Shown: positions 16,125-32,939 of the stretch, piece by piece
Layout of the letters: each line of letters begins with the position of its first letter
Numbering within the stretch: position 1 is the first letter of the stretch
Source: an uncultured Chlorobiaceae bacterium
GTDB lineage: Bacteria > Bacteroidota > Chlorobiia > Chlorobiales > Chlorobiaceae
Direction: 5' to 3'
NCBI GenBank assembly: GCA_903869365.1
Contig: CAIPYV010000105.1
Span: 1 to 64,000, forward strand
DNA: 64,000 bases
Translations under genes and position numbers: made by a program
The notes under the pieces: generated by a model
Told to the model about the DNA's origin: nothing
Databases searched by the model: none
Seen by the model: only the letters and a program-made list of their open reading frames with translations

Positions 16125-17168
16125 ATGACAGAGTGTAGTTATTTCATGCCACCTGAATGGACATTGCATAAGGCAACCTGGCTTTCCTGGCCTCACAGGC
16201 TTGAAACTTGGCCAGGCAAATTTGATCCGATTCCAGCAGTGTTTGTGGAAATTATATCCTGGCTGAGCTCTTCTGAGGAGGTTCATATCAATGTTCTTGA
16301 TGAGGTAATGGAGCGGGAGGTTTATGCATTGCTGCGCAATTCGCGCCATCAGCAGATTCAGATGGAACGTATTTTTTGTCACCAGATTCCAACGAATGAT
16401 GCATGGTGCAGAGATCATGGGCCGAACTTTGTTTTCCGTAGGACAGATGGCAAGGTTGAGAAAATTATTGTCAACTGGGTGTATAATGCCTGGGGAGAAA
16501 AGTATACCTCTTATGCTGATGATAATGCTGTGCCTGAAAGGATTGCATCGTTGCGGCAGTTGCCTCTGGTTTCACCACGTATGGTTCTTGAGGGTGGCTC
16601 TATAGATGTTAATGGAAAGGGCCTTCTGCTGACAAGTGAGGCTTGTCTGCTGAATCCTAATCGTAATCCATTACTGAGTCGAGAGGAGATAGAACAACAA
16701 CTCGCAAAGTATCTTGGTATTGAAAAAGTTCTCTGGTTAGGCGATGGTATTCTCGGCGATGATACTGACGGCCATGTGGACGATATGGCTCGTTTTGTCA
16801 ATGAAACAACTATTGTTATTGCTGTTGAGGAAGATCTTACAGATGGGAATTATGATGCATTGCAGGAGAATTACAAGAGGCTTCAGTGTTATACTGATCT
16901 TCATGGCAACCCGTTAACAGTGTTGAAACTTCCCATGCCTTCTCCAGTTTATTTCAACGGAGATCGTCTGCCCGCAAGTTATGCGAATTTCTATATCGCC
17001 AACACTGTAGTCCTTGTTCCAACCTACAGATGTTCTCAAGATCTTGCGGCCATTGAGATACTTCAGCAATGTTTTCCTGAAAGAAACGTTATCGGTATCG
17101 ATTGTTCCGACCTTGTCTGGGGGCTTGGGGCAATTCACTGTATTACTCATGAAGAGCCTGAATTGTAG
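16125..17168 (+). CDS. aguA: Agmatine deiminase
   Basis: MPPEWTLHKATWLSWPH...WCRDHGPNFVFR...LEGGSIDVNGKG...DDTDGHVDDMARF...GLGAIHCITHEEP. Confidence 0.96.
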   Translation: MTECSYFMPPEWTLHKATWLSWPHRLETWPGKFDPIPAVFVEIISWLSSSEEVHINVLDEVMEREVYALLRNSRHQQIQMERIFCHQIPTNDAWCRDHGPNFVFRRTDGKVEKIIVNWVYNAWGEKYTSYADDNAVPERIASLRQLPLVSPRMVLEGGSIDVNGKGLLLTSEACLLNPNRNPLLSREEIEQQLAKYLGIEKVLWLGDGILGDDTDGHVDDMARFVNETTIVIAVEEDLTDGNYDALQENYKRLQCYTDLHGNPLTVLKLPMPSPVYFNGDRLPASYANFYIANTVVLVPTYRCSQDLAAIEILQQCFPERNVIGIDCSDLVWGLGAIHCITHEEPEL

Positions 17169-17381
17169 GGTTCATGAGATAACGTTAGTGCAGTATGGTT
17201 ATCTCTTCATGATGAACAAATGTACCATATTAGTATGATGTGTGTTCTATAATTTGAGACGACGTGTTTCAAATCGCTGATCATATCTGTAAAGGAATTA
17301 AAGAGCAGTATATTTTCTTTGAGGCTAACTTATTTTAAAATAAATCATTATTTGGTATTCTTATTGAGTTGTATCTTGTTT

Positions 17382-17396
17382 TGGCACGGGAGTTGT
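17382..17396 (+). promoter_or_regulatory. Candidate sigma-54 promoter (-24/-12)
   Basis: TGGCAC-GGGAG-TTGT matches TGGCAC-N5-TTGC with the correct GG-to-G spacing of 12 nt and one mismatch. Confidence 0.6.
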
Positions 17397-17407
17397 AAAT
17401 ATATTGT

Positions 17408-17492
17408 TGAAACTTCTCACGCCAGTGAGATTGATCAGATGTAATGGGGGACATCTGATCATGAAAAAAGCGGCTTTACAGCCGCTTTTTTT
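17408..17492 (+). ncRNA. Candidate sigma-54-dependent small RNA with three tandem hairpins
   Basis: Predicted TSS ~12 nt after the -12 element; hairpins TCTCAC-gcca-GTGAGA (17415-17430), GATCAGATGT-aatggggg-ACATCTGATC (17433-17460), AAAAAAGCGGC-tttaca-GCCGCTTTTTTT (17464-17492). Confidence 0.5.
17464..17492. terminator. Bidirectional intrinsic terminator between aguA/sRNA candidate and mdh
   Basis: AAAAAAGCGGC tttaca GCCGCTTTTTTT. Confidence 0.85.
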
Positions 17493-17525
17493 CATTCCAT
17501 AAAATTCTTTCTAAACTCTCTGATT

Positions 17526-18482
<957 letters not shown>

Positions 18483-29857: not shown

Positions 29858-29987
29858 AATGAGTTCTCCTTTTTCTGATGGCGTTGAAATTGGAAATTTT
29901 CAGGAAAGTACTTGGAGATTATTCCTGTTAAATAACAGATTAGAATAAATTTAAAGAATAAAAATCAATAATTAAAGTAAAATATGT

Positions 29988-31763: not shown

Positions 31764-32939
31764 TTAAAGTCCGTAAGCTTTAATTTTTCTGTAAAGTGTT
31801 CGCTCAGTAATACCAAGTGCCTTGGCAGTTTTCCGTTTGTTACCAAGACATATTTCAAGTGCATCAGCAATGGATTTTTTTTCTATCTCTTCAAGCGAGT
31901 GTAAAGCTTCGGCTTTGTTTTGTTTGTTGCCTTCTTCTGATACAGTATTCACGCTGGTGTTGACCGGTGGATGAGTTGCTGACCCATCGGGCAGAAGTAG
32001 GGGGATATGAGGTCTTGTTTGAACGAGATGCTGCAGAAGCTGACGGATATCACTTATTTCCTGTCGAAGCTGAATAATACTGCTGTAGATAATCTGGAGT
32101 TCGTTCTTTTCTGATTTGGAGGGATCATGAACAAGGCTTTTGTAGCGGTTTCGTTGAACCAGATGTTTCTCAAGAATTTCCTGGGTGATATATTTCCCTT
32201 TTTCCAGTACAAGGAGAGATTCTATAAGATTTCTGATTTCTCTGACATTTCCCGGCCAGGGATAGCGCATCAGCATCTCTGCAGCATCAGGGCTGAAGCC
32301 TTCAAAGACGATTTTATGCTTGTGTTCAAACTCATGAACAAAAGTTTCGGCCAGCAGAAGAATGTCTTTTCCCCTTTCCCTGAGTGGAGGAATCTGCAGT
32401 TCAACACTGCGAAGGCGGTAAAAAAGGTCTTCTCTGAAATTTTTTTCAGCTACAGCCTGATACATGTTCTTGTTGGTTGCAGCAATGATACGTGCGTCAG
32501 AATAGATAGTCTCCGATGATCCTACCCTTTGGAACTCACCTGTTTCAATAACTCTGAGAAATTTTACCTGCGTTTCCAGAGGCATTTCGCCGATTTCATC
32601 AAGAAAAATAGTACCTCTGTCGGCACTTTCAAAGTACCCTTTTCTGCTTTGCACCGCTCCGGTGAATGCTCCTTTTTCATGGCCGAAAAGTTCTGATTCA
32701 AGAATACCGGCAGGAATTGCACCACAATTGACGGGAATGAAGCTTTTATCGGCACGCAGGCTGTTGGTATGGATAAAACGTGCCAGCACCTCCTTTCCAG
32801 ATCCTGTTTCTCCGATGATCAGTACGGTTATATCGGTTTCTGCAACCTGGAGAGCCAGTTGTTTAAGCTGGGATATCAGGACAGATTGTCCGATAAGGTT
32901 AATCTCTCGTTTCATCAGATTTTTCTGCCTTGAATTCAA
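31764..32939 (-). CDS. Sigma-54-dependent transcriptional activator without receiver domain
   Basis: [44 protein letters not shown], Fis-type C-term [22 protein letters not shown]. Confidence 0.96.

Follow-up and report, generated by a model that had tools for sequence, protein, structure and literature searches.

The window analyzed here is the whole 64,000-nucleotide stretch of DNA from an uncultured Chlorobiaceae bacterium. It contains aguA and mdh, which converge on a short gap where the initial annotation had placed a small RNA driven by sigma-54, and that location is confirmed. The features of the gap and its flanks, with upstream enhancer motifs abbreviated as UAS, are as follows.

16125 to 17168, plus strand: aguA (agmatine deiminase type, PF04371), conserved upstream neighbor
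17212 to 17227, no strand assigned: second, weaker UAS-like site ATGAACAAATGTACCA, the best 16-column palindrome match, 170 nt upstream
17254 to 17273, no strand assigned: candidate UAS TTGAGACGACGTGTTTCAAA, half-sites TGAGAC at 17255 and GTTTCA at 17266
17382 to 17396, plus strand: predicted sigma-54 -24/-12 promoter TGGCACG-GGAG-TTGT (TGGCACGGGAGTTGT), scoring 14.0/14.5 against the consensus
17408, plus strand: predicted transcription start, placed by sigma-54 spacing about 12 nt past the -12 element
17409 to 17475, plus strand: Chlorobi-1 RNA, RF01696 match of 77.3 bits
17415 to 17430, plus strand: hairpin 1 (UCUCAC / GCCA / GUGAGA), from the fold and compensatory changes in 94 distinct copies
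17432 to 17461, plus strand: hairpin 2, with the G-rich apical loop AAUGGGGG (17443 to 17450), from the fold and covariation
17463 to 17492, plus strand: hairpin 3, putative bidirectional intrinsic terminator, from the fold and from a hairpin of the same kind in most RNA-less aguA-mdh gaps
17526 to 18458, minus strand: mdh (malate dehydrogenase), conserved convergent neighbor

In an Rfam scan of the window, the segment is a full-length match to RF01696 (model positions 1 to 67 of 67), a family named Chlorobi-1 that had gone unremarked in the initial annotation. The score exceeds the gathering score of 50, and the match is therefore far beyond chance. The segment shares the two hairpins and the phylum of the family and is a member of it. 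Chlorobi-1 was published in 2010 as a non-coding RNA without a function (Weinberg et al. 2010, PMC2864571); the main text of that paper classes it as a probable RNA with neither a cis-regulatory nor a switch role, has 0 occurrences of sigma-54 or rpoN, and makes no mention of a UAS or a link to an activator. No specific reports came up in literature searches on the function of Chlorobi-1, on sigma-54 in green sulfur bacteria, or on small RNAs of Chlorobaculum. Given the full-length match and the earlier publication, the RNA as such was already known: it belongs to an Rfam family of green sulfur bacteria. Within positions 17200 to 17600, the scan returned only Chlorobi-1 and a sub-threshold match to STnc50, with no Qrr, NrsZ, or CrcZ. 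Elsewhere in the window, positions 29901 to 29961 (plus strand) match RF01711 (Lnt RNA) over its full length with 76.6 bits. Lnt RNA is a Chlorobi RNA with a candidate cis-regulatory role, and an lnt-like gene lies downstream on the same strand.

The folding of positions 17408 to 17492 yields the three hairpins originally described, with a free energy of -40.2 kcal/mol. Shuffled sequences average -17.0 (z = -7.8), and none of 200 folds as stably. Stem 2 has 11 bp when the U17432-A17461 pair is counted. Compensatory changes are found in all three stems across 94 distinct copies, a number counted after removal of coding-like and degenerate matches. Most stem positions accommodate three to six of the standard pair types, with up to six at one position, and the two conserved stems of RF01696 are thus both supported by compensatory changes. 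The apical loop of hairpin 2, UGGGGGA(C), is nearly invariant across copies. Weak Rfam matches in four genomes (G190_C33, G302_C82, G270_C52, and G358_C43) were excluded by eye as lying inside coding-looking sequence; a degenerate match of low score that has no loop (G270_C1) was also excluded by eye. A kissing interaction between loops 1 and 2 was rejected because loop 1 is variable (GCCC, GCCA, GCAA, and GAAA). A small open reading frame (own frame, ATG GGG GAC ATC TGA) was likewise rejected, as it is not kept in relatives.

The -24/-12 box at 17382 to 17396 differs from TGGCACG-N4-TTGC only in its last base, the single mismatch reported for it initially, and none of 100 shuffled versions of the 80-nt region preceding the RNA reached its score. 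The start predicted from it, 17408, agrees with where the Rfam model begins, 17409, and the promoter and the terminator are together consistent with an independent non-coding transcript. The strict pattern TGGCACG-N4-TTGY occurs at three sites in the genome (at this locus, ahead of nifH, and ahead of hsp20-dnaK). Because the reversed control pattern also turns up twice, the box alone is inconclusive; what is conclusive is its conservation. A -24/-12 box ends 10 to 22 nt before the start of the RNA model in 63 Chlorobi-1 copies, 53 of them in the genus of the window (50 at aguA-mdh and 3 at other loci) and 10 in the second genus of the family. Within the genus of the window, the box stands at a near-fixed spacing in all 50 of the aguA-mdh copies for which upstream sequence was available. 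The sigma-54 gene, rpoN, is present in the genome itself and in 20 of 20 relatives (21/21). The box before hsp20-dnaK (G000:C128:15374, L170) is perfect, an unusual form of control for a heat shock operon.

Chlorobi-1 matches occur in 48 of the 398 genomes of the phylum, 39 of them over the cutoff. Across the two genera of the window's family, the main locus keeps the same gene order: aguA, the RNA copies, and convergent mdh. Copies are single or in tandem arrays of two to four spaced 135 to 510 nt apart, numbers that are lower bounds, as many of the genomes are draft assemblies broken at repeats. Outside the family, the RNA is found at other loci. Most of the boxless copies in the second genus lie 135 to 210 nt behind a boxed copy, as if they shared the transcript of the copy ahead. 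The box is also lacking from copies in other families of the order, from copies at a second locus of the second genus, from the G254 copy, and from 3'-untranslated-region (3'-UTR)-type copies in G028, G190, and G102. Because the copies in other families of the order have no box, the RNA core appears to be more ancient, or at any rate more widespread, than its sigma-54 control.

Several of these additional loci have features of their own. At L034, L036, and L038, boxless copies of the 3'-UTR type lie about 20 nt past the stop codon of a gene whose conserved product has no Pfam match. The second locus of the second genus (L046, L048, L049, L050, L053, and L055) carries a divergent type of the RNA (AGATCCGTGGGGGAAC) without a sigma-54 box and adjoins a gene for a PAS-domain protein (PF08447 in L055), several of these loci also having an ArsA-like ATPase gene. 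Extra copies in G028 and G190 are near a gene for a phasin-like small protein (L033 and L035).

Upstream of the promoters, usually about 100 to 170 nt before the -24 box, lies a palindromic motif, TGTcTCA-N3-TGAgACA. This distance is the usual place for the site of a sigma-54 activator. The top enriched 7-mers upstream of the promoters, TGAGACA/TGTCTCA and GAGACAA/TTGTCTC, occur in 18 and 19 of 35 genomes (about 2.3 on average in shuffles), and a de novo search returned the 17-column palindrome TGTcTCAtaaTGAgACA with a log-likelihood ratio of 190.9 compared with at most 43.4 in shuffles. The case for an enhancer motif comes from this enrichment across genomes, the sites in the window's own genome being degenerate. 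The candidate UAS lies 128 nt upstream of the -24 box, and 29 positions in the window score as high as this best candidate, which makes it weak when taken alone. In the 66 genomes of the genus, exact TGAGACA-N1-2-TGTCTCA occurs three times; two of these sites precede Chlorobi-1 in G182. Exact TGTNTCA-N3-TGANACA also occurs at three sites in the genus, none before the RNA and not above the control, and no wider regulon can be read from that search.

The genome encodes eight strong sigma-54 activators, one of which, the distant C110 regulator (G000:C110:31285-32769), combines a receiver domain, a sigma-54 activation (AAA+) domain, and a Fis-type helix-turn-helix domain. Among the EBP ortholog groups of 12 genomes, the C110 group alone is present in all seven with the RNA and absent or broken in all five without it, where its only representative is a frameshifted gene in G170. 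Across 66 genomes of the genus, 29 of the 30 that have the RNA locus also encode the regulator (at least 52% identity), the exception being G353, whose genome is 86% complete. Among the 36 without the locus, the regulator is intact in G206 and G226 and frameshifted in G170, which form one clade. G102 and G254, which have Chlorobi-1 only without a sigma-54 box, lack the regulator. On a tree of AguA and HtpX, about four changes in the RNA can be counted; the activator changes in the same direction in three to four of the four independent pairs, with none or one otherwise (sign test, P = 0.125, significance being unreachable with about four changes). Because its presence tracks the RNA locus across the 66 genomes, this NtrC-type response regulator is the best candidate for the activator of Chlorobi-1, an assignment that is suggestive and not proof. 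Inspection of twelve loci revealed no kinase gene less than about 1.5 kb from the regulator, and a UAS or sigma-54 box was not consistently found before the activator gene itself. In most genomes inspected (L281 to L303), the sequence immediately preceding the activator gene encodes a repeat-rich protein of about 200 amino acids that weakly matches LPD38. The window also encodes, at about 32397 to 32897 on the minus strand (L099), a sigma-54 activator of about 383 amino acids without a receiver domain that is present in all 12 genomes compared.

Overall, we favor, with fair though not strong confidence, a model in which Chlorobi-1 is an RNA of about 85 nt with its own sigma-54 promoter that is probably switched by the C110 regulator and, most likely, works in trans by way of its UGGGGGAC loop. 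The regulator, presumably in response to a signal, would probably bind the TGTcTCA-N3-TGAgACA-type sites about 100 to 170 nt upstream and remodel the RNA polymerase-sigma-54 complex, so that the promoter would transcribe Chlorobi-1 as a separate RNA ending at the terminator common to the convergent mdh. The exposed, nearly invariant loop of hairpin 2 would then pair with C-rich mRNA sites (GUCCCCCA-like), and tandem copies in relatives might provide a higher dose. The sigma-54-driven, independent small RNA proposed in the initial annotation is supported, given that the promoter position, the fold, and the upstream motif are conserved across Chlorobiaceae.

The apical loop is the likely active site. 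Base-pairing with C-rich sites in mRNA is our first choice for its mode of action, at roughly even chances. A search with the complement of the loop in a 13-nt version found only the RNA copies themselves and no mRNA target. The earlier proposal that the GGGGG loop could pair with Shine-Dalgarno-type sequences looks weak in its anti-Shine-Dalgarno form, which would give five pairs including G-U with mismatched flanks. Ranked second, and rather unlikely in our estimation, is a protein sponge in which the G-rich loop would sequester an RNA-binding protein without any pairing to mRNA. Two small hairpins, a nearly invariant loop, and up to four repeats per locus would suit such a role, for which CrcZ supplies a precedent (PMC7602753), but the copies in the genus of the window are mostly separate transcripts with one loop each. 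The sponge is compatible with the promoter evidence and conflicts with pairing only over the mode of action.

A different source of activation would be a general activator, either NifA-like or another universal EBP, which would place Chlorobi-1 in a nitrogen fixation or general sigma-54 regulon. Universal EBPs (NifA-like, double-GAF, and window-type) are present in every genome examined, and nifH of the same genome carries the same perfect sigma-54 box. However, the upstream palindrome is absent before nifH and hsp20-dnaK of this genome, and genomes without the RNA retain NifA and other universal EBPs, so that we regard a general activator as improbable. No evidence emerged for nitrogen or carbon control or for the proposed connection to agmatine and putrescine metabolism: the nifH promoter of this genome has no such motif, and copies also occur away from aguA.

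A sigma-70 scan of the aguA-mdh gap found no site. In genomes without the RNA, aguA and mdh are usually a short distance apart, and most of these gaps retain the bidirectional AAAAAGCGG...CCGCTTTTT hairpin; hairpin 3 is thus best read as a bidirectional terminator common to the RNA, aguA, and mdh. Of the three-hairpin RNA first described, hairpins 1 and 2 stand as specific to the RNA, but hairpin 3 does not. The unit that is gained and lost, independently of the terminator, consists of the promoter, hairpin 1, and hairpin 2. In G102, the aguA-mdh gap still resembles by eye the enhancer region of relatives, and the promoter, the RNA, and the activator are gone. That the hairpins are a mere aguA/mdh terminator region with a coincidental promoter-like site, which the shared hairpin 3 might suggest, is scarcely credible, since hairpins 1 and 2 come and go with their loop and the promoter as one unit, covary, exist at other loci, and belong to a curated Rfam family.

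More tentatively, and somewhat short of an even chance in our view, Chlorobi-1 may be an output dedicated to one orphan regulator of the NtrC family acting with sigma-54, a multicopy switch resembling Qrr whose core predates its control and whose locus and activator were lost together in some lineages. The Qrr RNAs of Vibrio, controlled by LuxO and sigma-54, are the closest to it in working, with homology not implied. They too are multicopy small RNAs with sigma-54 promoters and an NtrC-type response regulator (PMC8043402, PMC11407668), whereas Chlorobi-1 copies are mostly in tandem at one locus and have a G-rich apical loop, and positions 17200 to 17600 show no Qrr match. NrsZ (NtrC) and CrcZ (CbrB) of Pseudomonas are similarly small RNAs activated by NtrC-family regulators (PMC7602753), and the candidate activator here is also of the NtrC family; unlike for these RNAs, no nitrogen or carbon link was found for Chlorobi-1. 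FopS of Bacteroides (PMC11697453) and LhrC of Listeria (PMC5880928) are paralogous small RNA families with possible dosage or redundancy effects, although FopS promoters are of the housekeeping type as opposed to the sigma-54 type predicted for Chlorobi-1 in Chlorobiaceae. The genomic evidence assigns Chlorobi-1 a class of promoter, an enhancer motif, and a single candidate gene for its activator, and hence a testable circuit that, if true, would bring a phylum far from the Proteobacteria into the company of known sigma-54-controlled multicopy small RNAs.
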